From Mucilaginibacter cryoferens (GTDB lineage: Bacteria > Bacteroidota > Bacteroidia > Sphingobacteriales > Sphingobacteriaceae): 64,000 nt of DNA. Shown in pieces: positions 21,940 to 50,189 of this stretch. Made by a program: the position numbers and the translations under genes. Location of the stretch: positions 80,980-144,979 of the forward strand of contig NZ_JACHCR010000002.1 of the NCBI RefSeq assembly GCF_014205845.1, given 5' to 3'. The first letter of the stretch is position 1, and each line of letters opens with the position of its first letter. The notes under the pieces were generated by a model. That model was given only the letters and a program-made list of their open reading frames with translations. It was not told where the DNA came from and did no database searches.

Positions 21940-22752
21940 ATGCTACTAAAAAACAAAGTGATTTTTTTAACCGGCGGCACCGAAGGTATTGGCTTTGAGT
22001 GCGCTAAAATATACCGCGCCGCGGGGGCTAAGCTCAGTATTATATCTAACTCGGCGCCGAGTATTGAGGCCGCACGATTGAAATTACAATCAGACGAGAT
22101 CTTGTACCTGAACGCCGACGTTGCCTCTGCAACGGATGTACAGCAGGCTATTATTAAAACGGTAAGCTACTTTGGCAAAATTGATGTGATCCATAACAAC
22201 GCCGGTATTAGTAATCCTTCAAAAGCCCTACACGAAACTACTGAAGATGAATGGAATGCCCTTTTTAACGTAAACGTGAAAGGCATTTTTAACACCACCC
22301 GTTTCGGGATTGATGAATTAAAGAAAACACGGGGCAATATATTAAACACAGGCAGTCTTGTGGGCGATATCGGGCAGGAAATTCATGCCGCGTATAGCGC
22401 AACCAAGGGGGCTATCAATACGCTAACCAAATCAATGGCATTAGATTACGCGCCTTACGGCATCAGGGTTAATGCCGTTGCACCTGCCGGTGTATGGACA
22501 CCTATGCTGCGGGTATGGAGCAAGCAGCAACCCGATGCCAACTCTATTGAAAGCTACCTGGATGATATTCATGCGTTGGGTTATTGCCCCGAGGGAGATG
22601 TGGTGGCCGATGTATGTTTGTTTTTAATATCAGACCAGGCCCGTTTTGTAACCGGCTGTATTTTGCCGGTTACCGGTGGTGCCGAGTTAGGCTATCGCAG
22701 GGTTGTAAATCAAACCATTCAATCTATCCCGCAAAAAAACAACCTTATATAA
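21940..22752 (+). CDS. SDR oxidoreductase, probable L-fucose or 2-keto-3-deoxy-L-fuconate dehydrogenase
   Basis: A 270-residue short-chain dehydrogenase. NAD(P) motif TGGTEGIG at residues 11-18, NNAG near residue 89, catalytic Ser in GSLVG, and Y152-x-x-x-K156 (YSATK). It is followed by L-fuconate dehydratase with one base between stop and next ATG, so the two are translationally coupled. In the non-phosphorylated fucose pathway, SDR enzymes perform either the first step (L-fucose to fuconolactone) or the oxidation of 2-keto-3-deoxy-L-fuconate; context fits both. Cytoplasmic. Cofactor preference is not clear: no acidic residue directly after the second strand is evident (LSIISNS), which slightly favours NADP use. 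Confidence 0.88.
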   Translation: MLLKNKVIFLTGGTEGIGFECAKIYRAAGAKLSIISNSAPSIEAARLKLQSDEILYLNADVASATDVQQAIIKTVSYFGKIDVIHNNAGISNPSKALHETTEDEWNALFNVNVKGIFNTTRFGIDELKKTRGNILNTGSLVGDIGQEIHAAYSATKGAINTLTKSMALDYAPYGIRVNAVAPAGVWTPMLRVWSKQQPDANSIESYLDDIHALGYCPEGDVVADVCLFLISDQARFVTGCILPVTGGAELGYRRVVNQTIQSIPQKNNLI

Positions 22753-22753
22753 A

Positions 22754-24001
22754 ATGATCAAAAATATACAAGTTGATGATATTCGTTATAAGCTGGATGG
22801 TGCAGCCGGCAGCGACGCTATACACACCGATCCGGTTTACTCTTACGCCGTAACCCGTTTATTTGATGATAGCGGCCACACAGGTGTTGGCTTTGCTTTT
22901 ACTTTGGGCGAGGGTAACAACCTGGTTTGCAAAGCGGCGCAGTACTATGCTGATAAAATAAAGGGACGGGATATTGAAGATACGATGGCCAATTTTGGCG
23001 ATTTATTTAAGAGTTTATCTAACGATCAGCAATTTCGTTGGCTTGGGCCGCATAAAGGGGTAGTGCATTTGGCGCTTGCTTCGGTTACCAATGCCTGTTA
23101 CGATCTTTGGGCCAAAAAACGAGGTGTTCCGCTTTGGAAATTATTGCTGGATCTATCGCCCGCGCAGATTGTTGCCACGCTCGATCTTTCTTATTTAGAG
23201 GATGAGTTGAACGAATATCAGGCTATAAAAATGCTGGCCTCACAGCAGGCAAGCCGCCCGGTGCGCGAAGGTATACTTACTGCAGGATATCCAGGTTATG
23301 ATACCTCCATAGGCTGGTTCAATTATTCTGATGAGAAAGTTAAGGAAAATTGCAAAATAGCTTTGGCCGAAGGTTTTACAGCTATGAAGTTAAAAGTGGG
23401 TTCGGTTAACCCCGAGCGGGATATCCGCCGGGCGCATATTGTAAGGGAAGTTGCCGGTAACAATGTAAAGGTAATGCTTGATGCCAATCAGCAATGGAAC
23501 CTGCCGCAGGCTATATCTATATGCAATAAGCTAAAGAGTATGAACCCGTATTGGATAGAAGAACCCACCCATCCGGATGATGTACTGGCTCATAAAACCT
23601 TAGCTAACGCGATAGCTCCATTAAAGCTTGCTTTGGGCGAGCATGTGCCCAATAAAATCATCTTTAAAAATTACCTGCAAACGGGTTCTGCATCATTTAT
23701 ACAAGTAGATGCGGTAAGAGTAGGGGGAGTAAGCGAATTTATCACTGTAAGTTTACTGTGTAAAAAATACGGGGTACCCGTTGTGCCGCATGTAGGCGAT
23801 ATGGGCCAGCTGCATCAGCACCTGGTATTATTTAACCATATAGCCATGGGGCACGAGGCTTTGTTTTTAGAACATATCCCTCACCTGCAAAAACATTTTG
23901 TAAACCCGGTAAATATTAGTGGCGGCGTATACCAAACCCCACAGGTACCCGGAAGTAGCTGCGATTTGAAAATACTTGCCCCACCCAACCCTCCCCGGTA
24001 G
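22754..24001 (+). CDS. L-fuconate dehydratase
   Basis: A 415-residue enolase-superfamily acid-sugar dehydratase that converts L-fuconate to 2-keto-3-deoxy-L-fuconate. Catalytic bases are K212/K214 (MKLKVG) and H346 (PHVGDMGQLHQH); magnesium ligands are D243 (DANQQW), E269 (IEEPTHPDD) and E296 (GEH). Residue spacing matches the described Xanthomonas FucD almost exactly (Lys220 and His351 there, a shift of five to six). The GYPGYDTSIGWFNYSDEKV region is typical of fuconate rather than galactarate or mandelate members. The C-terminal residues APPNPPR are encoded by an interspersed repeat that begins at 23978, so the native end has been replaced or extended. Cytoplasmic; second gene of the operon. 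Confidence 0.93.
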   Translation: MIKNIQVDDIRYKLDGAAGSDAIHTDPVYSYAVTRLFDDSGHTGVGFAFTLGEGNNLVCKAAQYYADKIKGRDIEDTMANFGDLFKSLSNDQQFRWLGPHKGVVHLALASVTNACYDLWAKKRGVPLWKLLLDLSPAQIVATLDLSYLEDELNEYQAIKMLASQQASRPVREGILTAGYPGYDTSIGWFNYSDEKVKENCKIALAEGFTAMKLKVGSVNPERDIRRAHIVREVAGNNVKVMLDANQQWNLPQAISICNKLKSMNPYWIEEPTHPDDVLAHKTLANAIAPLKLALGEHVPNKIIFKNYLQTGSASFIQVDAVRVGGVSEFITVSLLCKKYGVPVVPHVGDMGQLHQHLVLFNHIAMGHEALFLEHIPHLQKHFVNPVNISGGVYQTPQVPGSSCDLKILAPPNPPR

Positions 24002-24115
24002 GGAGGGCTTTAAGAAATCTTATGCCTCCATTGTAGATGAAGACATAAAAGAAGATTTATAAATAAAAATTTTAATTAATAAAGTCTCCCCTTTAGGGGG
24101 AGATTTAGAGGAGGC
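23978..24115. repeat. palindromic element inserted over fucD 3' end
   Basis: About 138 bp. The left end reads GCCCCACCCAACCCTCCCC with a CCCTCCCC/GGGAGGG hairpin, and the right end is the inverted counterpart (AGTCTCCCCTTTAGGGGGAG then TTTAGAGGAGGC). The left end is translated as the fucD C-terminus; the right end supplies GAGGAGG (24108-24114) five bases before the symporter ATG. Same family as 53201-53318 and 14362-14396. Confidence 0.65.
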
Positions 24116-24119
24116 ATAC

Positions 24120-25775
24120 ATGATACATACACCAGATCTGATAATTAGTGCCTTATATATAGCTGTGATATTTATCATAGGGTTATGGTCGGGTATACGG
24201 CATCAGCGCAAAACAAGAAATAATAATAACGAGGCTGGTGAGTACTTTCTGGCAGGTAAAAAACTGCGCTGGCCAATGATAGGGCTGGCTTTGTTTGCTA
24301 CCAATATTTCTTGCGTACACTTGGTGAGCCTGGCGCAAAGCGGGTTTGATACCGGCTTGCTTAACGGCGATTTTGAATGGATGGCTGCATTTACACTGAT
24401 ATTGCTGGCTCTATTTTTTGCGCCTTTCTATATCAAATCCGGCGTATCAACATTACCCGATTTTTTGGAGAAACGTTATGACCGTGCCAGTCGCGACTGG
24501 CTGGCTATTATATCTGTAGTATCGGCCGTATTGATCCATATTGCTTTCTCTTTATTAGCAGGTGGTATTGTATTACATACTTTGTTTGGGGTAGATATGT
24601 ATACCAGTGTTATAATTATCTCTGTTATTACTACTATATATACGGTAGTTGGTGGTTTAACCGCTGTAGTGGTAACAGAATCTATTCAAACGGTGGTGCT
24701 TTTAGGTGGTGCCATTATTATGAGTATTGCCGCCTATACCAAAATGGGGGGCTGGGAGCCTATGGTTGAAGTATTGAAACACAGTGGTCAGCTCAATAAA
24801 CTATCTATGCTGCGCCCGCACGGTGATGCCAGCGGGATGCCCTGGTACGCGGTGTTTTTAGGCTACCCGGTATTAGGTATTTGGTATTGGTGTGCCGATC
24901 AAACCATTGTACAGCGTGTTTTAGGTGCAAAGGATGTGAACCATGCAAGGGTTGGGCCGCTATTTTGCGGGTTTATAAAAATATTGCCTGTTTTTATTTT
25001 TGTGATGCCGGGGCTGTTTGCCTATACACTGGCCCAAAGCGGGCATTTGGATATTTCGGCCTTGAAAAGTGTGGTTAACGGTAAGGAGGTGGTGAACAGT
25101 AAAGGTATTTATACCCTCATGATCACCCAGCTTATCCCTCCCGGATTGATAGGGGTATTGGTGGCCGCGTTATTGTCGGGCTTAATGAGCCAGATCTCGG
25201 GAGCGTTAAACTCTATATCAACCATTGTAAGCTACGATATTTACAAACGATACAAGCCCGAGGCTACTGATAAAAAACTGGTGAGTATAGGCAAGATAGC
25301 CGCAGGGATAGCACTCATTGTATCGTTACTGATGCTGCCCCTGCTTAATAGTTACGAGAGTATATTTAACGGGCTCAACGATATTATTGCCCATATAGCA
25401 CCGCCTATAACCTGTGTGTTTTTATTGGGTGTGTTTTGGGATAAAGCATCGGCTATAGCTGCAAAGTATACATTGTGGATAGGCTCGGTAATAGGAGTGG
25501 TGGTATTTATAATAGGTAAAGTTTACCCTGTAAGTGCTATAGGCTCCATACCTTTTATGATGATGGCCTTTTACCTTTTTGTCATCTGCCTGTTTATGCA
25601 AATTGTATTATCCTACGTGTACCCTGTTGTACATACTAAAGAAAGCGCTGCACTTTATTGGAAATCGCCGTGGGAGCCATTACGTGGAGCGGCCTGGAGT
25701 GGCCTGGGCAATTATAAAGTGCTTTCGGTTTTGCTGATAGGCATAATGGTTGTATTGTTTTACATTTTTAGATAA
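24120..25775 (+). CDS. sodium/solute symporter (SSS family), likely fucose transporter
   Basis: A 551-residue inner-membrane carrier with about 14 hydrophobic segments, beginning IISALYIAVIFIIGLWSGI. SSS hallmarks include GEYFLAGKKLRWPMIGLALFATNIS (trimmed: AGKKLRWPMIGLALFATNIS), the GGLTAVVVTESIQ stretch, YWCADQTIVQRVLGAKD, and SGLMSQISGALNSISTIVS with sodium-site Ser residues. Homologues take up sugars with Na+ (SglT type). Placed between fuconate dehydratase and the mutarotase, it most probably imports L-fucose after extracellular fucosidases release it. The start codon has a strong SD (GAGGAGG) contributed by the preceding repeat, unusual for this phylum. Confidence 0.93.
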   Translation: MIHTPDLIISALYIAVIFIIGLWSGIRHQRKTRNNNNEAGEYFLAGKKLRWPMIGLALFATNISCVHLVSLAQSGFDTGLLNGDFEWMAAFTLILLALFFAPFYIKSGVSTLPDFLEKRYDRASRDWLAIISVVSAVLIHIAFSLLAGGIVLHTLFGVDMYTSVIIISVITTIYTVVGGLTAVVVTESIQTVVLLGGAIIMSIAAYTKMGGWEPMVEVLKHSGQLNKLSMLRPHGDASGMPWYAVFLGYPVLGIWYWCADQTIVQRVLGAKDVNHARVGPLFCGFIKILPVFIFVMPGLFAYTLAQSGHLDISALKSVVNGKEVVNSKGIYTLMITQLIPPGLIGVLVAALLSGLMSQISGALNSISTIVSYDIYKRYKPEATDKKLVSIGKIAAGIALIVSLLMLPLLNSYESIFNGLNDIIAHIAPPITCVFLLGVFWDKASAIAAKYTLWIGSVIGVVVFIIGKVYPVSAIGSIPFMMMAFYLFVICLFMQIVLSYVYPVVHTKESAALYWKSPWEPLRGAAWSGLGNYKVLSVLLIGIMVVLFYIFR

Positions 25776-25781
25776 GGGCAT

Positions 25782-26255: not shown

Positions 26256-26273
26256 TGTTAAGTTAATAATACT

Positions 26274-26340
26274 AAGTCGAAAGTCTTAAGTATATAAAAA
26301 AGAAAAATCCGACTTAGGACTTCTGACTAAAGACTGTTGA
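26274..26340. repeat. GACTT-rich palindromic repeat, copy 1
   Basis: AAGTCGAAAGTCTTAAGT is mirrored by GACTTAGGACTTCTGACT across an A-rich loop. Similar GACTT/AAGTC clusters are at 39123-39200 and 50285-50365. It probably ends the fucose catabolic operon. Confidence 0.5.
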
Positions 26341-27038
26341 TTTGATACCTTATTAATATATTTTAAGAAGATGATTGTTGTTTGTGAAAAAGATATACCA
26401 GTTTTTTTTGCTTTGTAAATTAATTGAGCAAGCTGTATGGTTTTGATGCACTAATCAACGGCTGTTTTATTGTTAATGTACGATAATCCATCAGGTCGTA
26501 TTTCGGTGCCTCGTAATTAAGGCATTTATAGGGCGTTGCGTGTGTTGTGTACAATTATTTTTACATCAAAAAAGGTTAAAAAGAGTAGTATAATCCATCT
26601 AATTTAAAGATTTATCCATTTCAAATACTTGCAAGGTAAATTAGTTTTACTAAACCAATAGTAACCAATTAAACTTATTAATATGCAAGAAAATTACTTT
26701 CCGTTAAATCCCATCTGATAGTATTGTTAATTTACCAAAGCCATAAATGGTAATTTAAGCTGATGCCCTTATTAAGTTGTATTACTTAATAGCATGGGTA
26801 AAACGTTGTACCATACAGCTTCGTGATTTTACTTTTCAAAAAATGCTCTTATGAGCCATGGCAACGCTTTGCCGTTTTTTTCGGCAGAAATAAATAAACT
26901 GTAAAATATACATTAATCAACAATCAAAAAACAGCAGGGGGTAAAATATCAGCAAAAGCCTGCTGTGCCAATTAAATCATTAAAATATTACCTCAGTAAT
27001 CTATTTAACCAATTAGTAAACCAATAATTAACCAATTT
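26341..27038 (+). other. long A+T-rich region upstream of susC
   Basis: About 700 bp with no convincing gene. It contains ATTAAGT-TGTATT-ACTTAAT near 26775, a small GGCAA/TTGCC hairpin (26860-26873) followed by a T-run, and the hairpin at 26931-26966. A long leader is common at Bacteroidota SusC/D operons, where antisense RNA or attenuation can act. No confident TAnnTTTG box was found. Confidence 0.45.
26931..26966 (+). promoter_or_regulatory. leader hairpin before susC
   Basis: ACAGCAGG (26931-26938) pairs with CCTGCTGT (26959-26966), 20-nt loop, ending 72 bp before the susC ATG. It has no T-tract. It may shape the leader mRNA. Confidence 0.4.
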
Positions 27039-30000
27039 ATGAGAAAATTTTACGATGTATTCAGGCGCCTTTGGGTGTTAAAAATTCCTTATAACTCATT
27101 AACAGCCGTAGGTGTGCTGCTTTTTGTGTTTATGGGTTTTGGCGTTGTTAACAAAGCGGCGGCGCAAACCAAAGTTACCGTAATAGGTACCGTTGTGGAT
27201 AGCCTTGGTGTACCAATTATTGGTGCCAATATTGCCCCGGTAAATACAAAAGGCAATAGCACCGCTACAGACGGAAACGGTAAATTCCTTTTAGACGTTG
27301 AGGTTGGAGTTGTTTTGAAAATAAGCTATATAGGCTATATTCCTAAACAAATAACCATTACCGCAAGCCAAAAGGTATTTAAAATAATATTAAGCGAAAC
27401 CAAAAGCCAATTTGATGATGTGGTTGTAACGGCTTACGGCCGTAAGCAGGTTAAAGAAGCCATAGTAGGCTCGGTTACCACCGTAAAACCAGGTAATTTA
27501 AAAATACCTGCCAGTAACCTTACCAATGCTTTGGCCGGCCAGGTGGCGGGTGTTATTGCATACACGCCAAGCGGACAGCCAGGGCAGGACAATTCTAAAT
27601 TTTTTATACGGGGTGTAACTACATTTGGCTACAAGCAAGATCCACTGATTTTGATAGATAACGTTGAGTTAACCTCAAATGACCTTGCACGTTTAAATGT
27701 GGATGATATCGAAAGTTTCTCGGTATTAAAGGATGCAAGTGCTACCGCGCTGTACGGCGCAAGAGGCGGTAATGGTGTAATTTTGGTAAAAACCAAAGAG
27801 GGCAAAGCAGGCAAGGCCCAGATCAATTTCAGGGTCGAAAATTCAAGGTCGCAATCAACACAAACGCTTAAGCTGGCCGACCCTGTTACTTACATGAAGC
27901 TTTTTGATGAGGCTACACAAACACGTTACCCACTAAATCCGTTGCCTTACACTCAAAATCAAATCAATAACACGCAAAATACCTTAAACAATGCACCAGG
28001 CAGTAATCAGTACGTTTATCCGGCTACAAACTGGGTTAATATGCTATTTAAACCGCATACCGATAACCAACGCGGTAATTTAAGTATACAAGGCGGTGGC
28101 GGTGTTGCCCGTTATTATGTTGCAGGCTCCTATAATAATGATAATGGTATATTAAGAACCGATATCAGGAACAACAATAATAACAATGTTAATTATAAAA
28201 ATTATCAGCTACGATCAAACGTAAACATTAACGTTACCGCTAAAACCGAATTGATTGTCCGTTTATCAGGCACGTTTAATGAATACAATGGGCCAAGAAG
28301 CACAAATGGAGGTTTAGCAACCGATTTATATAACCTGGCAGTGCATACCAGTCCGGTTGATTTCCCGGCTTATTATCCTGCCGATTCGGCCAATTTAAAA
28401 ACCAAGCATATTTTATTTGGTAATGTACCTGCGGCAGGTGGTGGCGTTGGATCTACCAATTACATTAATCCATACGCGTCTTTACTTTCGGGGCACCAGA
28501 ATTTTTCGGAGTCGAGAATGCTGGCCCAGTTGGAGTTAAATCAAAATCTTGATTTTTTAACCAGCGGGTTAAATTTTCATGCCATATTTAGCACCAACCG
28601 TTATGCATACTTTCAATCAGAGATGTATTATCAGCCTTTTTACTATAATGTAGGCAGCTATGATAAGGCAAGCAATCAATATACCTTAAACTGGATAAAT
28701 TCGCAGCCAGGGCAGGCAACCGAGTATTTAATTTACAACAGAGATATTGGTTCTGATAACCTGCAAACTCAAACTTACCTGCAGGGTGTATTAGATTATA
28801 ACAAAACTTTTGGGAAAGATCATAACGTAAGCGCCGCTTTAATTGGTACCCAGCAACAACAATTATATTCTAACAACAAAGATCCTAACGGTAATTATAC
28901 GCTGCAATACTCATTACCTTACCGTAATGAAACTGTTGCCGGCCGTTTAACCTATTCATTTAAAAGCAGGTACTTTCTTGAAGGAAACTTTGGATACAAT
29001 GGATCTGAACGTTTTTCTGCGAATCACAGGTTTGGATTTTTCCCAACAATTGGCGCATCGTGGATAGTATCCGACGAAAAGTTCTGGGGCAGTCTTTACA
29101 ATGTGATCGACAGGTTTAAACTGCGTGCCAGCTATGGCCTGGTAGGTAACGATCAAATTGGTAGCCAAAGGTTCTTTTATTTATCAGATGTTAATCTTAA
29201 CGGTGGCAACCCGGCCTCGTTTGGTACAACTAACGGTTATACCCGCAATGGTGTAAGCGTAAATAGCTACGAAAACGACGATGTAACCTGGGAAACATCA
29301 AAGCAAACCAACTTAGGTGTAGAGTTTACTGTACTTAAGAAAATTAATGTTATTGCCGAGATCTACAAAAATAATAAGTACAACATTTTGCAAAACCGTT
29401 CTTCTATACCATCAACAATGGGTTTAGAAGCACCAATATCTGCTAACATTGGTAAAGCAGAATCGCAGGGTATTGATATTTCTATTGATGGAAAGCAAAA
29501 CATAGGCCGCGACTTTTCGATGGCTGTAAGAGGTAATTTTACTTATTCAACCAACAAATACACACAATACGAAGCGCCGGATTATCCGGAAGCTTACAGA
29601 GATCAGGTTGGGCAACCAATTAACCGTCAGTATGGTTATGTAGCCGAGAGGTTATTTGTAGATGATAATGAAGCAGCAAACTCGCCTTCACAAATTTTTA
29701 GTACCGGAGGATTTGCCCCCAAAGGAGGCGATATAAAATACCGGGATTTAAATGGCGATGGTAAAATTGATGCTGCCGATCAAACATTTATTGGTTACCC
29801 AACAGTGCCCGAAATTGTATATGGGTTTGGTGTATCCGCTTCTTATAAAAACTTTGATCTTTCGGGCTTTTTCCAGGGCCAGGCTCATGTATCGTTTTTT
29901 ATTGATCCGGCCCGTACCTCTCCTTTTATCAAAAGCCCCGATTCATATTATACAAGTAATACCCAATTGCTGCAGGCTTATGCTGATAACCATTGGTCTA

Positions 30001-30314
30001 CAGATAACCAAAACCTGTATGCACTTTATCCAAGGCTTGGGCCAGATGGTGCTGTTATTGAAAATAACAGGCAAAACAGTACCTGGTGGCTGCGCGATGG
30101 CAGCTTCCTGAGGCTTAAATCTGTTGAGTTTGGTTACACATTGCCAATACGTATAGCTAAATATATAAGGGTTAAAAACTTAAGGGTTTACTTTAATGGC
30201 TTAAACCTGTTTACCTGGAGCCCTTTCAAATTATGGGACCCCGAGCTTGGCGGCAATGGCTTTGCATATCCAATTCAAAAAGTGTTTAACATAGGTTTAA
30301 ATGTCAATTTATAA
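27039..30314 (+). CDS. SusC/RagA-family TonB-dependent outer-membrane receptor
   Basis: A 1091-residue receptor. The signal region is residues 1-43 (ends NKAAAQ). A carboxypeptidase-regulatory-like beta-sandwich (about 46-115) comes next (VTVIGTVVDSLGVPIIGANI), then the SusC motif DDVVVTAYGRKQVKE (about 127-141), the plug (about 142-255, with FFIRGVTTFG and DDIESFSVLKDASATALYGA), and a beta-barrel to the aromatic-rich C-terminus (KVFNIGLNVNL). There is no STN anti-sigma signalling domain. With SusD it imports bound oligosaccharide, powered by TonB. It opens the SusCD operon, SusD being 24 bp downstream. Confidence 0.97.
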   Translation: MRKFYDVFRRLWVLKIPYNSLTAVGVLLFVFMGFGVVNKAAAQTKVTVIGTVVDSLGVPIIGANIAPVNTKGNSTATDGNGKFLLDVEVGVVLKISYIGYIPKQITITASQKVFKIILSETKSQFDDVVVTAYGRKQVKEAIVGSVTTVKPGNLKIPASNLTNALAGQVAGVIAYTPSGQPGQDNSKFFIRGVTTFGYKQDPLILIDNVELTSNDLARLNVDDIESFSVLKDASATALYGARGGNGVILVKTKEGKAGKAQINFRVENSRSQSTQTLKLADPVTYMKLFDEATQTRYPLNPLPYTQNQINNTQNTLNNAPGSNQYVYPATNWVNMLFKPHTDNQRGNLSIQGGGGVARYYVAGSYNNDNGILRTDIRNNNNNNVNYKNYQLRSNVNINVTAKTELIVRLSGTFNEYNGPRSTNGGLATDLYNLAVHTSPVDFPAYYPADSANLKTKHILFGNVPAAGGGVGSTNYINPYASLLSGHQNFSESRMLAQLELNQNLDFLTSGLNFHAIFSTNRYAYFQSEMYYQPFYYNVGSYDKASNQYTLNWINSQPGQATEYLIYNRDIGSDNLQTQTYLQGVLDYNKTFGKDHNVSAALIGTQQQQLYSNNKDPNGNYTLQYSLPYRNETVAGRLTYSFKSRYFLEGNFGYNGSERFSANHRFGFFPTIGASWIVSDEKFWGSLYNVIDRFKLRASYGLVGNDQIGSQRFFYLSDVNLNGGNPASFGTTNGYTRNGVSVNSYENDDVTWETSKQTNLGVEFTVLKKINVIAEIYKNNKYNILQNRSSIPSTMGLEAPISANIGKAESQGIDISIDGKQNIGRDFSMAVRGNFTYSTNKYTQYEAPDYPEAYRDQVGQPINRQYGYVAERLFVDDNEAANSPSQIFSTGGFAPKGGDIKYRDLNGDGKIDAADQTFIGYPTVPEIVYGFGVSASYKNFDLSGFFQGQAHVSFFIDPARTSPFIKSPDSYYTSNTQLLQAYADNHWSTDNQNLYALYPRLGPDGAVIENNRQNSTWWLRDGSFLRLKSVEFGYTLPIRIAKYIRVKNLRVYFNGLNLFTWSPFKLWDPELGGNGFAYPIQKVFNIGLNVNL

Positions 30315-30338
30315 CATTAACTGAATTTAATTCAACAT

Positions 30339-32249: not shown

Positions 32250-32282
32250 CAGCCAATAATTAACAATCATATAATTGAAAAT

Positions 32283-33524: not shown

Positions 33525-33557
33525 GTACATTGTTTATCATCAAAAATTAAAAGAAAC

Positions 33558-37258: not shown

Positions 37259-37262
37259 AAGT

Positions 37263-39116: not shown

Positions 39117-39122
39117 CTGGTG

Positions 39123-39566: not shown

Positions 39567-40119
39567 GTTTTTTTTTAAGATGTCATTACTGTTTTTTCTG
39601 GGTTACCCCCGGTTGTCACTCAATGACGGCTGTATAAGGGCTTAATGGAGTGTGTAAAATGTCCTCGAAAACGTTTAAACAGGCTTTTAGTCCAATTAAC
39701 TTTCTATAAACCATTGACGAAAACAGGATACAGACGTTTTTTGGTCTTAGCTGATGTGAAGTGTTTTCTCCATTTCTACATAACAAAATTGATACAAAGC
39801 ATATTGCCGATGTAATAAGTATATCAATGATTTAGCGATAGTATTGGTCATAAATGAGTTATCATAGCATAGTTCATATTTGTTTTATTTTACCATGATA
39901 TATATCAGTGTATTGTCCATCTTTTTAAAAGGTTTATCCATTTTTTAAAAAGTAATAAGCAGATACATTTACGCTAACCAATACAAAACACATCAATTGA
40001 ATGCCGCATTTTTTTAATACATGTGCACAGCCATGCTTTGGAGTTACAGGTAACTTTTTAGTTTATAAAAACATCAATACATATAAACTTAAAAACTAAC
40101 ATTCTAAAGCTGATAACCG
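39567..40119 (+). other. non-coding stretch upstream of the esterase gene
   Basis: About 550 bp, A+T-rich toward the end, with no gene recognised. It must contain the promoter for the second enzyme block. ACCCCCGGTTGTCACTCAAT near 39605 looks like another repeat fragment. No clear -7 box was identified. Confidence 0.4.
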
Positions 40120-42057: not shown

Positions 42058-42085
42058 AAAGCACCTAACTAATTTAAACTATACA

Positions 42086-43399
42086 ATGAAAACAAAAACA
42101 GGACTTTTAATAGCTCTTGTATTAAGTACATGCGTTGCTATGGCACAGCAGGCAACAACGGCCGTGCCGGTTAAAACCCCTAAAGCAGTTATGGATCAGT
42201 TTATGGATAAGCGCTTTGGCATGTTTATCCATTTCGGTCCGGTTACGCAACGTGGTACCGAAATTGGCTGGAGCCGGAACGACCAGGTACCCGAAGAGGA
42301 ATATGATAACCTGTATCACGAATTTAATCCCACCTTATTTAATGCTGATGAATGGGTAAAAGCAGCTAAAGATGCCGGCATGAAATATCTTACCATTACA
42401 GCTAAGCACCACGATGGTTTCCTGCTATGGCCAAGCGCGTTTTCTGATTATAATGTATCTAAATCTCCATTTAAAAGAGATATAGTTGGCGAGCTTGCCA
42501 AAGCTTGCAAAAAAGAAGGTATCACCTTTTGCATCTATTGCACCGTGCTGGATTGGCACGATAAAGATTATCCTATTGATAACCCGCATCACCCCGAAAT
42601 AAACGCCCGCAAAGGCGATATGGCCGCTTTTAAAACCCGTATGAAAAACGAACTAAAGGAAGTGATAACCAAATATCATCCCTTTATGCTTTGGTTTGAT
42701 GGTTATTGGGAAACCCCGTGGACAACTGCCGATGGGCAGGAAATTTACAACTACATTAAAAGTGTTGATGTAAATGTAATTACCAATAACCGCCTGGGTA
42801 AAGTAACAGATAAATTAAGCGGCGATGCCGTGGGCGATTTTTTAACCCCTGAACAAACTATAGGTAAACTGAATATGGCTGAACCCTGGGAAAGCTGTAT
42901 CACCATTTGCAATCAATGGGCCTGGAAACCAAACGACCAGATGAAATCACTAAAGCAATGCATCCAAACTTTGGTTACAACGGCATCGGGCAACGGTAAT
43001 TTGTTGTTTAACGTTGGTCCGGCTATGGATGGCCATATAGAAGCCCGGCAGGTGGCCCGCTTAAAAGAAATGGGGAGTTGGTTAAAGCAAAACGGCGAAG
43101 CTATTTATGGTACTAAAGGCGGTCCGTATTTACCAACTGCAGAGTATGGTGCTACACGCAAAGGCAATAAGGTATACATTAATGTTTTTGAGCGGAAAGA
43201 CAGTACCTTGAACATCCCGTTGATTCCCAATGCCCAGGTTCTGAAATCGTATTTCCTTAACGGGAACACGGTGGCTATAAAATCTGATAGCAAAGGCTAT
43301 AAGATAGAGCTGCCTGCTACTTTACCCGATGAAAATTGCTCTGTAATAGTACTAGAACTGGATGTTGACGCTACGGAGATCCCCGTAATAAAATCATAA
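42086..43399 (+). CDS. GH29 alpha-L-fucosidase
   Basis: A 437-residue secreted retaining fucosidase with signal peptide ending AMAQQ (about 21). The TIM barrel has FGMFIHFGPVTQRG near residue 45, the HHDGF motif (TAKHHDGFLLW, about 108-118) and the nucleophile D205 in LWFDGYWE. The C-terminal beta-sandwich is short (about 355-430). The lack of an extra CBM suggests action on short oligosaccharides. GH29 covers alpha-1,2/1,3/1,4/1,6-fucosyl linkages; subfamily cannot be fixed by eye, though WFDGYWE with a compact C-terminus resembles the narrow-specificity (B-like) group. It lies 7 bp before a GH95 gene. Confidence 0.94.
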   Translation: MKTKTGLLIALVLSTCVAMAQQATTAVPVKTPKAVMDQFMDKRFGMFIHFGPVTQRGTEIGWSRNDQVPEEEYDNLYHEFNPTLFNADEWVKAAKDAGMKYLTITAKHHDGFLLWPSAFSDYNVSKSPFKRDIVGELAKACKKEGITFCIYCTVLDWHDKDYPIDNPHHPEINARKGDMAAFKTRMKNELKEVITKYHPFMLWFDGYWETPWTTADGQEIYNYIKSVDVNVITNNRLGKVTDKLSGDAVGDFLTPEQTIGKLNMAEPWESCITICNQWAWKPNDQMKSLKQCIQTLVTTASGNGNLLFNVGPAMDGHIEARQVARLKEMGSWLKQNGEAIYGTKGGPYLPTAEYGATRKGNKVYINVFERKDSTLNIPLIPNAQVLKSYFLNGNTVAIKSDSKGYKIELPATLPDENCSVIVLELDVDATEIPVIKS

Positions 43400-43406
43400 T
43401 ATAAGC

Positions 43407-45743
43407 ATGAATTTAAAGAGTTTTATACCCGCCACAACGGCTCTGTTATTTGTATCTGCCATTTGTTTGGGGCAGCAAAAGCCGCTAACGCTGCATTACG
43501 ATAAACCAGCCTCGCGCTGGGAAGAAACCCTTGCACTAGGTAACGGCCGTTTAGGAATGATGCCAGATGGCGGAGTAAGCAACGAGAAAATTGTACTCAA
43601 TGATATTACTTTATGGTCGGGCTCGGTGCAGGATGCCAATAATTATGATGCTTATAAAAAGCTGCCAGAGATAAAGGCGCTTTTATTAGCCGGTAAAAAT
43701 GTAGAAGCACAGGCACTGATAGATAAAGATTTTGTGTGCAAAGGCCCCGGCTCTGGCGGCAGGCAATGGGGCTGTTTCCAAACCCTCGGCAACCTGAACC
43801 TGAAGTTTGATTACAATGGTGCCGATGCATCAGCATTTACCAATTATCAACGGGAGTTATCACTTGATAATGCCATTGCCAAAAGCACTTACACCGTTAA
43901 TGGTGTTACCTACAGGCGCGAGTACTTTACCAGCTTTGGCGATGATGTGGATATGATTCGTTTAACTGCCGATAAACCGGGGCGGTTGAATTTTAGTATT
44001 GATTTAAACCGGGCCGAGCGCTCTAAAACCAGTACCATTGGCAATACCCTGCAAATGGAAGGCCGGTTGGATAACGGCACAGATGGTAATGGCATGCAAT
44101 ACATTGCCAATGTTAAAGCAAAACTTACAGGTGGCACATTAACTGCAACGGATAATACCCTGGTAATAAAGGGTGCTACAGAGGTTGTTATTTATGTATC
44201 GGCAACAACCGATTTTAAAAGCCCGGGCTTTAAAGCAAAAATGGAGCAAGCCCTGGCTGCTGCAATTACAAAGCCTTACGCTTTGCAAAAACAACAGCAT
44301 ACAGCCAAATTTCAAAAACTGTTTAACAGGGTGAGCATCAATTTAGGTGATGATAACGCTACAGAAACTACAGATCAACGCCTCATCAGTTTTCATAAAT
44401 CACCTGCGGACGATAAGGGGCTACCGGTATTATTTTACCAGTTTGGCCGGTATTTAAGCATTTGCAGCACAAGGATTGGTTTATTACCGCCAAATTTACA
44501 AGGGCTTTGGGCCAATGAGGTACATACACCCTGGAATGGCGACTATCACCTGGATGTGAACGTGCAGATGAACCATTTTCCGGTGGAGGTTTCTAATTTA
44601 TCAGAATTAAATCTGCCATTGGTTGAATTGGTGCGCGGCCTGGTTAAAAATGGCGAACGTACCGCAAAAGCCTACTACGATGCCGACGGGTGGGTAGCCC
44701 ACGTAATTACCAATGTTTGGGGATGGACAGAGCCGGGCGAAAGTGCTTCATGGGGAGTAACCAAAGGTGGTTCGGGCTGGTTGTGCAGCAATATATGGGA
44801 TCATTATGCATTTACCAACGATAAAAGCTTTCTGAAAAGCGTGTATCCTATTTTAAAGGGATCGGCACAGTTTTACAATAGCATTCTGGTTAAAGACCCT
44901 AAAAGCGGCTATATGGTAACAGCTCCATCTTCATCGCCCGAGAATAGTTTTGTGATGCCGGATGGCAGCGGCAACCACGCCAGTATTTGCATAGGTGCAA
45001 CGTTCGATAACCAGATCATGCGCGAACTGTTCACCAACGTAATTACCGCATCGGAAACCTTAGGTGTTGACGCCGCTTTTCGTGCACAGTTAAAAAAACG
45101 GTTAACGGAGATTCCACCAGCCGGTATTATCAGTAAAGATGGCCGCATACAGGAATGGCTGGAAGATTACAAAGAAACCGAGCCACAGCACAGGCATATC
45201 TCACATTTGTATGGCATCTATCCTGCATCAGAGATAACTGCCGATGGCACGCCCGAACTGGCTGCCGCCGCTAAGAAAACCCTGGATGTACGCGGCGATG
45301 ATGGGCCAAGCTGGTCTATTGCCTACAAGTTGCTGTTTTGGGCCAGGCTGCACGATGGTAACCGGGCGTACAAGCTATTTACCGAGATCATGAAACCTAC
45401 CACAAGCACGGGTATTAATTATGGTGCAGGCGGAGGTATTTATCCAAACCTATTATCTGCCGGTCCGCCGTTTCAGATAGATGGCAACTTTGGTACCACG
45501 GCAGGTATTGCCGAAATGCTGATCCAAAGCCATGAGGGCTATATCAACCTTATTCCGGCCATACCTGATAGCTGGAAAGTTTCGGGCGAAGTAAAAGGTT
45601 TACGGGCCCGTGGCAACTTTACAGTTGATTTTAAATGGAAAGATGGAAAGGTAATAAGCTACCGCGTTACATCAACCACCCCTCGTAAAGTGAAAATAAA
45701 AGTTAACGGGGTGATGAAAGAAGTAATGGCACAAAAGGTTTAA
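43407..45743 (+). CDS. GH95 alpha-L-fucosidase (copy 2)
   Basis: A 778-residue secreted GH95 enzyme with signal peptide ending CLGQQ (about 23). Family markers include LTLHYDKPASRWEETLALGN, the LPPNLQGLWANEVHTPW segment with NVQMNHFPVEVSNLSE (catalytic Asn region), RIQEWLEDYKETEPQHRHIS, and QIDGNFGTTAGIAEML. It is clearly a paralogue, not a recent duplicate, of the GH95 at 34973: sequence between the motifs differs widely. In the second copy the Asn motif reads NVQMNHF where the first has NIQMNYW, a difference next to the active site that could change linkage or leaving-group preference. Confidence 0.94.
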   Translation: MNLKSFIPATTALLFVSAICLGQQKPLTLHYDKPASRWEETLALGNGRLGMMPDGGVSNEKIVLNDITLWSGSVQDANNYDAYKKLPEIKALLLAGKNVEAQALIDKDFVCKGPGSGGRQWGCFQTLGNLNLKFDYNGADASAFTNYQRELSLDNAIAKSTYTVNGVTYRREYFTSFGDDVDMIRLTADKPGRLNFSIDLNRAERSKTSTIGNTLQMEGRLDNGTDGNGMQYIANVKAKLTGGTLTATDNTLVIKGATEVVIYVSATTDFKSPGFKAKMEQALAAAITKPYALQKQQHTAKFQKLFNRVSINLGDDNATETTDQRLISFHKSPADDKGLPVLFYQFGRYLSICSTRIGLLPPNLQGLWANEVHTPWNGDYHLDVNVQMNHFPVEVSNLSELNLPLVELVRGLVKNGERTAKAYYDADGWVAHVITNVWGWTEPGESASWGVTKGGSGWLCSNIWDHYAFTNDKSFLKSVYPILKGSAQFYNSILVKDPKSGYMVTAPSSSPENSFVMPDGSGNHASICIGATFDNQIMRELFTNVITASETLGVDAAFRAQLKKRLTEIPPAGIISKDGRIQEWLEDYKETEPQHRHISHLYGIYPASEITADGTPELAAAAKKTLDVRGDDGPSWSIAYKLLFWARLHDGNRAYKLFTEIMKPTTSTGINYGAGGGIYPNLLSAGPPFQIDGNFGTTAGIAEMLIQSHEGYINLIPAIPDSWKVSGEVKGLRARGNFTVDFKWKDGKVISYRVTSTTPRKVKIKVNGVMKEVMAQKV

Positions 45744-45901
45744 GAAGACTTAAAGTATAAAACTATGCGATTTTATGTTTCTGATTTAAGATAGAATTTA
45801 TTTTATATGTCATAGTGACAAATATTTTTAATATCATTGCTCTTCAAAACCAATTCAATTTATAACCTGCAATCAAGTTTGCTATTTTTTAATACAGCTA
45901 A

Positions 45902-47932
45902 ATGAAAATACGCTTCAAAATAATTTTTACCCTATTATTGGTAATGCACACCTTTTTCGGAATTGCATCTGCCCATAAGCAAGCCGTAACTTTTACCGTC
46001 CCGTATGGAAACGGCAATACCATTGTTTATGATTTGAAAGCCGGTTTGTATAATGTTTATCATGGAAAAACCTCCATATACTCCAGCGTAAGCTCAACCT
46101 TTAAAATTAAAGACGAAACCATTTCAACCACCGACAAATTGTACCGCAAGTATACCGTGGTACCGGTAAGTGATGGATTTGGCAAAGGTGAAAAATATGT
46201 GGTTACGCTTACCGGTAATAACCTGCCTAAAATTGAGCAGGTATTTTACGTTTATCCCGGCAAAGATTTTTTTCTTACGCAGATAGTGCTGTCAGGAAAA
46301 AGCCTCGCCAGTAATTCCATTATTCCGTTTTCGGGTAATATACCAACTGTTACAGGCGATGCCCGCAGTGTTTTTGTACCTTTTGATAATGATACTTTCA
46401 TTCGCTACAATGCCAAAGAGTTTAAAGCCCCATTTAGTAATGTAAGTGCCGAGGTTGGTGCCGTTTACGATAATACAACCCGTAATGGCTATATAGCAGG
46501 CTCGGTTGAACACGAGGTTTGGAAAACCGGTATCCGTACTGTTGCAAACACCCAAAGCGGCAACAAAGTAGTGGTTTGGAGCGGGTATACTGAAGAGAGC
46601 GTAACCCGCGATCATATAGAGCACGGTGAGGTTAAGGGTGATGTTGTGAAATCGCCAAAGATATTTATTGGCTATTACAACGACTGGCGCACCGGCATGG
46701 AAGAATATGCCAAAGCCAACCGCATTGCCGAACCTCCTATTGTTTTTAACTGGACAAAACCAACACCGGTGGGTTGGAATAGCTGGGGCGTAATGCAGGA
46801 GAAACTCAATTATGAAAAGGCCACCAAAGTAGCCGATTTTTTTGCCGATAGCCTATCTGCTTTCCGCACAGGTAACACTGCTTTTATCGATCTGGATTCG
46901 TATTGGGATTTTATGCTGAAAGGTGGTTTGGAAGGTGACTACAGCAAGTTAAAGGAGTTTGCCGATTACTGCAAAAGCAAGGGTCTGCAACCCGGAGTGT
47001 ACTGGGCACCATTTACAGATTGGGGCTGGAAAGATGGTCCCGAACGTAAAGTCGCAGGAACTAACTATACCTATGGCGAAACCTGGACAAAGGTGGGCAA
47101 AGGCTATCATGATATTGATGGCGCAAGGGCTGTTGACCCAACGCATCCGGGAACCTTGCAGCACATCGACCTGGTAATTGGCAAGCTGAAAGAATGTGGT
47201 TTTAAAATGATCAAAATAGATTTCTTGGGTCATGCTACTGCCGAATCAACCCATTTTTATGATCCAACGGTAACTACCGGTATGCAGGCCTACCGCAAGG
47301 GTATGGAGTACCTGGTAAACAAGCTGGGCAATCAGATGTTGCTTTACGCTGCCATATCGCCAAGCCTGGCAACCGGCAGATACGTACACACCCGTCGCAT
47401 AGCTTGTGATGCCTTTAAAAGTATTGATAATACCCAATACACTTTAAATAGTGTAAGCTACGGCTGGTGGCAAACCTATTTATATAATTTTGTTGATGCC
47501 GACCACGTAGTGCTCAACAACGAAAGCGAAGGGGCAAATCGCGCCCGCATGCTTTCGGCCATGATAACCGGTACATTTATAACCGGCGATGATTTTTCTG
47601 TACATGGGCAATGGAGCGCGCGGGCTATGGCGTGGTATCAAAACCCCGAAATAATGGCAGTAATAAAAAACGGCAAAGCTTTTAAACCTGTTGAGGGCAA
47701 TACCGGCGAAAATGCATCAGAATTATTTACCCAAAAAATTGGCAATGCTTATTATGTAGCCATATTTAACTACTCGGATAACCCAAAAGAGTTTACGTTG
47801 GATTTTAAAAGACTAGGGCTGCCTGCGCAAAAATATAAAGTGACGGAAGTATTGCAAGGCACCAACACAGCTATAAATGTAAAACTTCCGGCTGCCGATG
47901 CCGCGCTATATAAATTTGAGTTCGCTAAGTAA
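45902..47932 (+). CDS. clan GH-D alpha-galactosidase-like enzyme
   Basis: A 676-residue secreted protein with signal peptide ending IASAH (about 25). An N-terminal beta-domain (about 30-270) precedes a TIM barrel containing PTPVGWNSWGVMQEKL (about 297-312), DLDSYWDF, and MIKIDFLGH, where D440 is in the nucleophile position of GH27/GH36 enzymes. A C-terminal beta-domain follows (about 600-676). This pattern fits alpha-galactosidase or alpha-N-acetylgalactosaminidase; exact family (GH27, GH36 or a neighbour) is uncertain because spacing between domains is unusual. It stands between GH95 and the GH36 gene, in the same direction. Confidence 0.8.
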   Translation: MKIRFKIIFTLLLVMHTFFGIASAHKQAVTFTVPYGNGNTIVYDLKAGLYNVYHGKTSIYSSVSSTFKIKDETISTTDKLYRKYTVVPVSDGFGKGEKYVVTLTGNNLPKIEQVFYVYPGKDFFLTQIVLSGKSLASNSIIPFSGNIPTVTGDARSVFVPFDNDTFIRYNAKEFKAPFSNVSAEVGAVYDNTTRNGYIAGSVEHEVWKTGIRTVANTQSGNKVVVWSGYTEESVTRDHIEHGEVKGDVVKSPKIFIGYYNDWRTGMEEYAKANRIAEPPIVFNWTKPTPVGWNSWGVMQEKLNYEKATKVADFFADSLSAFRTGNTAFIDLDSYWDFMLKGGLEGDYSKLKEFADYCKSKGLQPGVYWAPFTDWGWKDGPERKVAGTNYTYGETWTKVGKGYHDIDGARAVDPTHPGTLQHIDLVIGKLKECGFKMIKIDFLGHATAESTHFYDPTVTTGMQAYRKGMEYLVNKLGNQMLLYAAISPSLATGRYVHTRRIACDAFKSIDNTQYTLNSVSYGWWQTYLYNFVDADHVVLNNESEGANRARMLSAMITGTFITGDDFSVHGQWSARAMAWYQNPEIMAVIKNGKAFKPVEGNTGENASELFTQKIGNAYYVAIFNYSDNPKEFTLDFKRLGLPAQKYKVTEVLQGTNTAINVKLPAADAALYKFEFAK

Positions 47933-47981
47933 AAAACAAAAAAATTAACCTTATTTGTACCTGATAAATAACCTATTAAAA

Positions 47982-50189
47982 TTGAGAAAGACATTTATAA
48001 ACAAAGTACTGCCCTTCGGCGTGGTGCTCATGAGTTCGGTAGCTATGGCGGCCGGTAGTTATGCTCAAACCGTAACCATCCCTGTAGAAACACAAAACAA
48101 TGCCCTGGTGCTGCAAACAGATGGTGATAAAAACCTGAAAATGGTTTACTTCGGCACAAAACTGAACAATACCAAAGAGTATGAACACATCCTGAAAATG
48201 TACAGGCAGGCCGATGATTCGGGTGTTTTAAATGATGCCTATATGCCATCTGGTTCTGCAAGCCTGGCCGAGCCTGCTATCACCATTACACATGCCGATG
48301 GCAACAAATCACTTAACCTGGTTTATGTAAGCCATGCCGTTACCAAAATTGATGATGATGTGAGCCTGTTAACCGTTAAGCTAAAAGACCCTGCTTACCC
48401 GTTTGAAGTAACACTATACTATAAAACCTTTTTTAAGGAGGATGTTACCGAACAATGGTCGGTAATAAAGCATAACGAAAAAGGGGTAGTAACGCTAAAT
48501 AAGTACGCCTCTGCCAATCTTAACCTAAAAGGCAGTGGCTTTTGGTTAAAACAATATCATGGCAACTGGGCCACAGAAATGCAGCCAGAGGAAGCTAAAC
48601 TTACCCATGGTATTAAAACCATCGATAGTAAGTTGGGTACCCGTGCTAATTTGTACGAGCCATCTATGTTTATGGTATCGATGGATAAGCCAGCTACCGA
48701 AGATGAAGGTAAAGTGATGCTGGGCGCTATGGAATGGTCTGGCAATTTTAAGATAGATCTGGAACTGGACGTATCTAATAATTTAAGAGTGATTGCAGGC
48801 ATTAACAACGCCGCCGCAGAATATCACCTTAAGCCTGCCGAAGAATTTACTACCCCGGCATTTTTATACACCTACTCAGATCATGGTAAAGGTGATGCCA
48901 GCCGCAAATTGCAGCGTTGGGCACGCAAATACAAAATTGTTGATGGCGAAGGCGATAGGCTTACCCTTTTAAACAACTGGGAAACCACCGGCTTTGATTT
49001 TAACGAAAGCCGCCTTGCCGAATTAATGAAGGATACAAAAAAATTAGGTGTCGACCTGTTTTTGCTGGATGACGGCTGGTTTGCCAATAAATTCCCTCGT
49101 AATGACGACCATGCAGGATTGGGCGATTGGCAGGAGAACAAACTTAAGCTCCCTAACGGCATTGGCTCTTTAGTGAAAGAGGCAACTGCCGATGGTGTAA
49201 AATTTGGCATCTGGATAGAACCCGAAATGGTGAATCCTAAAAGCGAGCTATATAGCAAACACCCGGATTGGGTTATTAAAGAGCCTAACCGCCCCGAGAA
49301 ATATTTCCGTAACCAGTTGGTGCTGGATCTTACTAATCCAAAGGTGCAGGATTTTGTTTTTGGTATAGTTGATAACCTGTTTACTAAAAACCCTACCCTT
49401 GCCTATATTAAATGGGATTGTAATGCGGTAATCTATAATGCGTATTCGGCATATTTAAAGAAAGATCAGTCGCATCTGTATACCGATTATGTTTTTGGTT
49501 TATACAAGGTTTTAGAGCGTGTAAGGGCCAAATATCCAAAGGTGCCTTTAATGCTATGCTCTGGTGGTGGTGGCCGTGTTGATTATGGCGCCCTTAAATA
49601 CTTTACCGAATTTTGGCCAAGTGATAATACCGAGCCTTTAGAACGCATATTTATTCAATGGGAATATTCGTACTTCTACCCGGCTATTACCAGTTCTAAC
49701 CACGTTACAGATTGGGGTAAACAGCCATTAAAGTTTCGTACAGATGTAGCCATGATGGGTAAATTAGGCTTTGATATTGTGGTAAGCCGTTTAAGTGATC
49801 ACGATCTATCGTACGTTCACGATGCGTTAAAAAACTACGATAACCTAAAAGAAGCTATCTGGCATGGTGATCAATATCGCCTGCAATCTCCCTGGGATAA
49901 CGATGCTGCATCACTGATGTATGTAAACGATGCTAAGTCAAAAGCTGTTGTATTTAACTACCTGGTAAACAATCGTTACAATGCAGGTACCAAAGAGCCT
50001 ATCCGTTTAAAAGGTCTCGATCCACAAAAAAAATACCTGGTTAAAGAGATCAATCTTTACGCCGGGGCAAACTCATCTATAGAAAATAACCTGGTTTTAA
50101 CAGGCGACTTTTTAATGACCGTAGGCATAAATCCTGATGTTAACAGCGGCAGAACAAGCGTTGTTTTGCAACTGGACGAAAGCAAGTAA
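47982..50189 (+). CDS. GH36 alpha-galactosidase, TTG start
   Basis: A secreted alpha-galactosidase of 735 residues if translated from the TTG at 47982, which gives a normal signal peptide (MRKTFINKVLPFGVVLMSSV then AMAAGSYAQ). No ATG starts an adequate signal: the first in-frame ATG (48030) lacks the basic n-region, and the other upstream TTG (47955) adds nine residues. GH36 signatures are FLLDDGWFANKFPRNDD, the nucleophile D479 in YIKWDCNA, CSGGGGRVDYG and acid/base D548 in WPSDNTEP. It hydrolyses terminal alpha-galactosides, usually alpha-1,6. It closes the enzyme block before a strong terminator, 49 bp after the previous gene. Confidence 0.94.
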   Translation: MRKTFINKVLPFGVVLMSSVAMAAGSYAQTVTIPVETQNNALVLQTDGDKNLKMVYFGTKLNNTKEYEHILKMYRQADDSGVLNDAYMPSGSASLAEPAITITHADGNKSLNLVYVSHAVTKIDDDVSLLTVKLKDPAYPFEVTLYYKTFFKEDVTEQWSVIKHNEKGVVTLNKYASANLNLKGSGFWLKQYHGNWATEMQPEEAKLTHGIKTIDSKLGTRANLYEPSMFMVSMDKPATEDEGKVMLGAMEWSGNFKIDLELDVSNNLRVIAGINNAAAEYHLKPAEEFTTPAFLYTYSDHGKGDASRKLQRWARKYKIVDGEGDRLTLLNNWETTGFDFNESRLAELMKDTKKLGVDLFLLDDGWFANKFPRNDDHAGLGDWQENKLKLPNGIGSLVKEATADGVKFGIWIEPEMVNPKSELYSKHPDWVIKEPNRPEKYFRNQLVLDLTNPKVQDFVFGIVDNLFTKNPTLAYIKWDCNAVIYNAYSAYLKKDQSHLYTDYVFGLYKVLERVRAKYPKVPLMLCSGGGGRVDYGALKYFTEFWPSDNTEPLERIFIQWEYSYFYPAITSSNHVTDWGKQPLKFRTDVAMMGKLGFDIVVSRLSDHDLSYVHDALKNYDNLKEAIWHGDQYRLQSPWDNDAASLMYVNDAKSKAVVFNYLVNNRYNAGTKEPIRLKGLDPQKKYLVKEINLYAGANSSIENNLVLTGDFLMTVGINPDVNSGRTSVVLQLDESK

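Follow-up and report, generated by a model that had tools for sequence, protein, structure and literature searches.

A candidate AraC-linked polysaccharide utilisation locus for a fucose- and galactose-bearing heteroglycan in Mucilaginibacter cryoferens

A stretch of 64,000 nucleotides of Mucilaginibacter cryoferens DNA (assembly GCF_014205845.1, 6.95 Mb in 64 contigs; contig NZ_JACHCR010000002.1, positions 80,980 to 144,979 of the forward strand), referred to as the window and numbered from its first letter, carries a polysaccharide utilisation locus (PUL) which is linked to an AraC-family regulator and which, on balance, appears to serve the use of a soil heteroglycan containing alpha-linked L-fucose and D-galactose, probably mannose, and ester groups. 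The system-level reading of the locus is held with good confidence; its gene content, its synteny, a conserved direct-repeat box and the pocket residues of its enzymes were observed directly. A first-pass annotation of this DNA had described an AraC-linked locus for fucose and alpha-galactose acting on an acylated glycan, a description which is supported here, a shared box being found before SusC and the esterase (and, weakly, before the SDR gene) and both GH95 enzymes having the fucose-type His; its proposals of a self-contained catabolic operon and of a B-antigen-like substrate are not supported. In the literature searched, the use of fucose-bearing glycans by soil Bacteroidota, fungal heterogalactans included, is little described, and the locus supplies a testable set of enzymes, a candidate operator, and natural variants some of which carry GH110 and others lack it.

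Organisation of the locus and its recurrence in related genomes

The locus is recognised as a PUL from an adjoining SusC/SusD pair accompanied by carbohydrate-active enzymes, as identified by Pfam. On the minus strand the AraC gene (20609-21511) is followed after 124 bp by the GH92 gene (18199-20484), and on the plus strand three blocks are found, namely SDR, FucD-type enolase, SSF symporter and RhaM mutarotase (21940-26255), then SusC, SusD, two lipoproteins, GH95a and GH110 (27039-39116), and, past a gap of 1 kb, esterase, GH29, GH95b, GHD (a divergent clan GH-D enzyme) and GH36 (40120-50189). All genes named by the first-pass annotation were recovered between 21940 and 50189 in the open reading frame (ORF) listing, with their families confirmed by Pfam; the GH92 gene beside AraC, which probably belongs to the locus set, had been omitted.

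The GH110 protein was used as a query against 399 genomes of the family, 93 of which gave a match, and regions were fetched around the best GH110 and GHD matches. Considering that synteny extends over the locus in three further members of the genus (genomes G351, G360 and G345, with identities of 64-68% for GH110 and 63-94% for the other locus genes), its gene order is beyond chance, and the gene set put forward earlier is a real unit. Extra ORFs are located between RhaM and SusC in G351 and, in the same place and with similar lengths, in G345; an ECF sigma factor and a FecR protein are encoded among those of G351 (L041:6860-9443). Six further genomes (G387, G213, G385, G294, G270 and G318) contain a run of the fuconate operon, GH95a, esterase, GH29, GH95b, GHD and GH36 without GH110, and no SusC/D was seen within this run, the RhaM-GH95a junction of G387 being the border of two stretches. 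Across 12 distinct loci, L103 and L104 among them, GH110 is present at the GH95a-esterase junction in four and absent there in eight, and is an optional member of the locus. M. dorajii CECT 7660 (L102) has GH110 in its locus, and M. lappiensis ATCC BAA-1855 (L109) has it elsewhere in place of this junction.

A genome scan with a GHD alignment, involving one genome per species, retained 80 of 249 relatives as loci. GHD is accompanied in these by GH95b (46), GH36 (45), esterase (35), orthologous SusC (25) and GH29 (20), counts which are lower bounds because contig ends cut some of the stretches. The enzyme core recurs across many Mucilaginibacter and Pedobacter loci, the fuconate genes adjoin it in several arrangements, and many Flavobacterium loci combine GHD with a SASA-type esterase, GH36, GntR, SSF and a SusC-like gene (esterase, SSF and GntR each identified by Pfam in one representative). 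Across the phylum GHD is rare (5 of 395 sampled genomes). The GH92 gene lies inside the operon of Mucilaginibacter sp. L196 (68% identity) and adjoins GH95b in another locus (L135, 70%). Two genes of 1079 and 505 aa next to GH92 in the M. lappiensis-type loci were considered as SusC/D and rejected, their Pfam matches being PSCyt/PSD1 and DUF1501.

Table 1 Features of the locus in window coordinates
Feature	Position	Strand	Evidence
GH92 alpha-mannosidase (predicted)	18199..20484	-	PF07971 1.3e-183; signal peptide by eye
AraC-family regulator	20609..21511	-	PF00165, PF12833, PF02311
Weak direct-repeat box upstream of SDR, 2 mismatches	21697..21724	+	
SDR dehydrogenase, fucose operon	21940..22752	+	PF13561, PF00106
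L-fuconate dehydratase-type enolase (FucD)	22754..24001	+	PDB 4a35 2e-107; 1yey, 2hne about 2e-100
Sodium:solute symporter (SSF)	24120..25775	+	PF00474; TIGR00813 323.7 bits, cut-off 184
RhaM-type mutarotase, N-terminal hydrophobic segment	25782..26255	+	PF05336 1.3e-28; equivalog TIGR02625 below cut-off
Direct-repeat box WTCCATY-N14-WTCCATY upstream of SusC, 0 mismatches	26593..26620	+	
SusC-like TonB-dependent transporter	27039..30314	+	PF07715, PF13715, PF00593
SusD-like lipoprotein	30339..32249	+	PF07980, PF14322; lipobox-like motif
PUL lipoprotein 1, DUF4959-DUF5126-DUF5000	32283..33524	+	Pfam; lipobox-like motif
PUL lipoprotein 2, DUF4998-DUF5000	33558..34781	+	Pfam; lipobox by eye only
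GH95a, FucOB-like, predicted alpha-1,2-fucosidase	34973..37258	+	PF22124; PDB 7znz 3.4e-171
GH110, predicted alpha-1,3-galactosidase, optional member	37212..39116	+	PF23764, PF23763; PDB 8yk3 3.1e-77, 9i4f 3.4e-62
Direct-repeat box upstream of esterase, 1 mismatch	39915..39942	+	
Esterase, N-terminal alpha/beta-hydrolase-like and C-terminal SGNH/CE17-like part	40120..42057	+	PF13472
GH29, predicted alpha-L-fucosidase	42086..43399	+	PF01120 1.3e-86; PDB 9eu1 1.4e-66
GH95b, core GH95 with Asp and Gly at AfcA N421 and H760 positions	43407..45743	+	PF22124
GHD, divergent clan GH-D enzyme, hallmark of related loci	45902..47932	+	PF17801 only (Pfam)
GH36, predicted alpha-galactosidase, AgaB-type	47955..50189	+	PF02065 2e-100; PDB 4fnq 2.2e-105

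The lipobox test overlooked lipoprotein 2 and therefore gives no proof on the lipoprotein status of the enzymes. Part of the space ahead of the esterase (39290-39570) is taken up by two copies, noticed by eye, of an element about 100 bases long that includes palindromic segments, GGATTGCTTCGTCGTACCTCCTCGCAA for example, and looks like a dispersed REP-type repeat. Near-identical 18-base words (2 mismatches) occur in opposite orientation at 26260-26340, before SusC, and at 50190-50398, before an outer-membrane gene. The latter (OMP_b-brl_3, 50399-53200) and a response regulator/kinase pair (53318-54786) lie 3' of the locus, as they do in the three close relatives. Upstream, a GH20 beta-hexosaminidase gene (14837-17140) was found; it adjoins the locus in G351, and none was seen in the fetched stretches of G360 and G345. 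The same genome contains on contig C8 (L212/L213) a paralogous locus with AraC (42%), a GHD paralogue (751 aa), a sugar transporter, an aldose epimerase, a DUF5107 protein, SusC (66%), SusD (60%) and lipoproteins. In Mucilaginibacter sp. OK283 (L101), genes which resemble window 1147-7034 by length only are followed by the esterase-GH36 block, as if the intervening stretch were missing.

The glycosidases and the esterase

The two GH95 enzymes were compared in an alignment of 108 sequences, no two of which are 99% or more alike, comprising a GH95a group (16), a GH95b group (57) and others (35). Each of the eight mapped FucOB pocket residues (W378, H383, N385, N387, E541, W655, H693 and D699; a ninth, H613, is unmapped) is kept in 16/16 GH95a sequences, whereas in 57/57 GH95b sequences N385 is replaced by Asp and H693 by Gly, the other six being kept. 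At the corresponding AfcA positions (Asn421/His760), Asn/His is found in all GH95a sequences and in 29/35 others, of which one has Asp/Gly. The FucOB equivalents of these two residues are critical or essential by mutation, H693 contacting the fucose O4 in a docking model (PMC10063614), and a role in positioning the acid is attributed to AfcA Asn421 (PMC12282258). In BACOVA_03438, Thr occupies the AfcA His419 position and contacts the L-galactose O6 (PMC4491172). This fucose-type His is kept in both the GH95a and GH95b groups and is Thr in 25/35 others, which argues for fucose rather than L-galactose as the target, and L-galactose was demoted as a candidate; the GH95b pocket is nonetheless altered. 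The GH95 assignment made earlier stands for both proteins, and GH95b is not a textbook fucosidase.

GHD matches neither the GH36 nor the GH27 model of the catalytic domain, PF17801 (Melibiase_C) being its only match in Pfam with none in NCBIfam, and because only this domain matched, the protein was assigned to clan GH-D only. A GHD profile reaches the T. maritima GH36 (TmGH36) at 1.6e-6, and D440 and D503, invariant in 44 sequences, align with TmGH36 Asp 327 and 387 (numbering derived, with an offset of 12 residues), which we take to be the catalytic pair. The AlphaFold2 (AF2) model of GHD (pLDDT 81.4) retrieves 8x1b in Foldseek at 5.7e-26, together with FpGalNase and other GH36 enzymes at 12-15% identity. 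When the GHD motifs were scored in 104 proteins, the first matched 101 and the stricter second 57. GHD may represent a separate family. A long GHD paralogue (L078:8947-12066) carries CBM35/CBM6 and a type-9 secretion sorting domain and is probably secreted, and one database relative (P0085) is listed with alpha/beta-hydrolase domains. The specificity of both GHD and GH95b is unreadable from characterised relatives. It is possible, if speculative, that the two form a co-inherited pair with new specificities, GHD founding a family of clan GH-D and GH95b cleaving modified or differently linked fucose, which would act on an acylated heteroglycan outside the range of all described PULs.

The window GH110 carries Asp364 and Asp387-388, spaced like the catalytic residues Asp321/344/345 of PdGH110B (PMC7939477); this Asp set was scored for the window protein only, the pattern being too narrow for relatives. 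Its ORF opens at a TTG, and by eye the ATG at 37263 is likely the real start. GH92 matches PDB 6f8z (BT3130) over nearly its full length with 1018.7 bits. In the AF2 model of the esterase (pLDDT 87.8), the C-terminal part resembles in Foldseek a two-domain acetylmannan esterase (6hfz, 1.4e-23, 20% identity), presumably the RiCEX-type enzyme of CE17, and other matches are to alpha/beta-hydrolases.

Fucose catabolism and the direct-repeat box

The contribution of the locus to fucose catabolism consists of two enzyme genes (SDR and FucD), a transporter and a mutarotase. By homology, FucD is a dehydratase, as it matches solved L-fuconate dehydratases (PDB 4a35, 1yey, 2hne), and its sole other match in the genome is weak (1.8e-6). 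The SDR reaches 143.6 bits against the L-fucose dehydrogenase model NF052481 (cut-off 300), and the two candidate SDRs for the first dehydrogenase, in the locus and on contig C1, are each below cut-off for all 25 families shown. No L-fucose isomerase (PF07881) was found in the genome, the same model giving matches in 3/14 control genomes. On contig C1 a gene run (L202) encodes two GH29, a galactarate/altronate-type dehydratase, an SDR, an FAH hydrolase (382.1 bits against the 2,4-didehydro-3-deoxy-L-rhamnonate hydrolase model NF053535, below its cut-off of 500) and an amidohydrolase (300.9 bits against the L-fucono-1,5-lactonase model NF052480, below its cut-off of 400). The L-fucose route thus looks oxidative and divided between two loci, candidates for the lactonase and the FAH hydrolase lying on contig C1, and the self-contained catabolic operon proposed earlier is not supported.

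The direct repeat WTCCATY-N14-WTCCATY, with a period of 21 bp, lies upstream of SusC and of the esterase, with a weak copy upstream of the SDR gene. In the window alone, 12 matches with at most two mismatches were counted versus 5.9 expected, a number reached by 3/100 shuffles and not striking. Across related loci, when at most one mismatch was allowed and 62 duplicate upstreams were removed, the box was found in 32/206 upstreams of locus genes versus 2/498 others, counts which carry no formal probability because the sequences are related. Other repeat periods gave 0-3, except for a period of 27 (12/206 versus 2/498), which perhaps reflects a third half-site. The box precedes the esterase in 16/32, GH95b in 11/25, SusC in 3/6, GH29 in 1/10 and GH92 in 1/5 upstreams, and none of the 13 SDR upstreams reaches the one-mismatch threshold. 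Among 24 hand-picked loci it was present in 15/15 with an AraC orthologue (at least 55% identity) and in 3/9 others, the stretches of which may simply not extend to AraC. A comparison of words among promoters yielded mainly repeats unlike the box. The conserved box supports an AraC regulon, and this AraC would act at it. One genome-wide match lies 236 bp upstream of the paralogous SusC (66%) on contig C8, near the GHD paralogue. A third exact box in the window (6375-6402, minus strand) is upstream of a 255-aa minus-strand ORF (5552-6319) without a Pfam match, a possible further member of the regulon, and a fourth (53774-53801) lies inside a coding region.

Candidate substrates and comparison with known systems

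Read together, and with all enzyme activities taken as predictions from family and residues, the genes suggest a scheme in which SusC/SusD and the two lipoproteins would bind and import the chains, the esterase would strip acyl groups, and GH92 would take off alpha-mannose. GH29, GH95a and GH95b would take off fucose (in the case of GH95b perhaps substituted or differently linked fucose), and GHD, GH36 and, where present, GH110 would take off alpha-galactose. L-fucose would then enter via the SSF symporter, be mutarotated and be oxidised by SDR and FucD, with the candidate lactonase and FAH hydrolase supplied from contig C1, under an AraC protein acting at the repeats of 21-bp period.

The families GH92, GH95, GH110, GH29, GH-D and GH36 act mostly on alpha-linkages, although clan GH-D also includes beta-L-arabinopyranosidases, a model of which the window GH36 matches weakly (61.3 bits, cut-off 1100). 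By Pfam, no beta-hexosidase family is present in 18199-50189 and no xyloglucan set (endo-glucanase, GH31, GH3/GH2) in 18199-53200. This combination speaks against a substrate made up wholly of xyloglucan, N-glycans or B-type chains; compared with xyloglucan or chains of the B-antigen kind, a fungal fuco(manno)galactan would be the better fit. Such a polymer, an alpha-1,6-galactan with fucose and mannose branches, is plausible at somewhat less than an even chance, and the fungal fucogalactan of the first-pass annotation is kept as the best candidate that gene content suggests. In Flammulina, alpha-1,2-Fuc and Man-alpha-1,3-Fuc branches occur. PMC8829048 describes a mushroom galactan whose alpha-1,6-Gal backbone bears Man/Fuc branches, and in a deadwood study Mucilaginibacter made up 7% of the isolates, the sequenced strain having three chitin-related genes (PMC8247643). 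No paper joining mushroom fucogalactan to fucosidases and galactosidases was found in the literature search.

Several observations weigh against this reading of the locus. The Man and Fuc branches of the galactan in PMC8829048 were assigned as beta by its authors, and no clear case of esters on mushroom-type galactans was found at the level of titles and abstracts. The linkage of BT3130, an enzyme with strong activity on yeast mannan, is called uncertain and likely alpha-1,3 (PMC5930347). GH95b is without two residues important in characterised alpha-1,2-fucosidases, the Flavobacterium GHD loci have another esterase and GH36 with no fucosidase labelled, the adjacent GH92 in the M. lappiensis-type loci reaches no more than 37-38% identity (one of these was checked and has unrelated neighbours), and no surface endo-enzyme was recognised in the locus. 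Genome-wide, a stricter box pattern gave 9 matches versus 7 for its reversed control, i.e. no enrichment, and the SusC genes of G351 and G345, which have no box, speak against a uniform regulon; taken with the sigma/FecR pair of G351, where a switch to another kind of regulator seems to have occurred for the import genes, control of import seems variable.

Bacterial exopolysaccharides and O-antigens often carry alpha-linked Fuc and Gal, and a polymer of this kind from soil neighbours, with O-acetyl groups, would also account for two esterase types recurring near GHD (CE17-like in 35/80 loci, a SASA-type cluster in 22/80, with one SASA representative identified by Pfam), which indicate routine acylation. 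Since polysaccharide lyases and enzyme families for uronic acids or amino sugars are absent by Pfam from 21940-50189, and GH92 is a poorer fit, we consider such a substrate unlikely. A plant origin (root mucilage, arabinogalactan protein, complex xylan or xyloglucan side chains) is quite unlikely: GH95 is among the components of xyloglucan loci in plant-associated Bacteroidota (PMC11892949) and B. ovatus meets corn xylan with GH95 and an alpha-D-galactosidase (PMC4491172), but the locus has by Pfam no endo-glucanase, xylanase, GH31, GH3, GH2 or GH35, GH2 with GH3 appeared in L132 only among the minority of neighbour proteins run through Pfam, and both GH95 proteins have the fucose-type His, unlike the corn-xylan enzyme.

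The B-antigen-like chains proposed earlier, or an N-glycan-like glycoconjugate, would have GH110 acting on alpha-1,3-Gal, GH95 on H-type fucose, and GH92 and GH20 on the core; GH110 matches PpaGal of a soil Pedobacter (9i4f; PMC12002104), GH95a is closest to FucOB, and the GH20 gene lies upstream. This reading was demoted on the absence of GH110 from its junction in 8/12 loci, and as 21940-50189 encodes no beta-hexosidase family, the locus has neither a beta-galactosidase nor an endoglycosidase family, and no GH20 was seen upstream in G360 and G345, it is very unlikely. Most improbable is that galactoglucomannan or raffinose-type alpha-galactosides are the substrates of GHD and GH36, the fucosidases being mere neighbours: although the Flavobacterium loci without labelled fucosidases and the acetylmannan esterase-like C-terminal part would suit it, GH95b lies near GHD in 46/80 loci, fuconate genes join repeatedly, and the locus has no mannanase family.

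In literature searches limited to open-licence papers, mostly titles and abstracts, no described locus with this gene set was found. FucOB, the Akkermansia GH95 alpha-1,2-fucosidase (7znz), is the best solved relative of GH95a, with which it shares the eight mapped pocket residues, and differs from GH95b at N385 and H693, whereas the best solved relative of GH95b is the alpha-L-galactosidase BACOVA_03438 (4ufc), which has Thr in place of the fucose-type His of both window enzymes and keeps both Asn. FpGalNase, SpAga and the T. maritima GH36 have the clan GH-D fold and the aligned Asp pair in common with GHD at 12-15% identity. PpaGal and other GH110 alpha-1,3-galactosidases share family and catalytic Asp set with the window GH110, which belongs to a genus clade (at least 46% identity, with members outside at most 41%) and, unlike PpaGal-type enzymes, sits in a fucose PUL and is dispensable. 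The match between BT3130 and the window GH92 is near full length, in a different genomic context, and the RiCEX-type esterase has a fold similar to the C-terminal part of the window esterase, which has an extra N-terminal part. Compared with Bacteroidota PULs of the SusC/D type, the locus differs in that no endo-enzyme is recognised, and shares the SusC/D pair, the lipoproteins, exo-glycosidases predicted from their families to be exported, and a local AraC; this type of PUL is well known, and the members of the GHD and GH95b groups seem uncharacterised experimentally.

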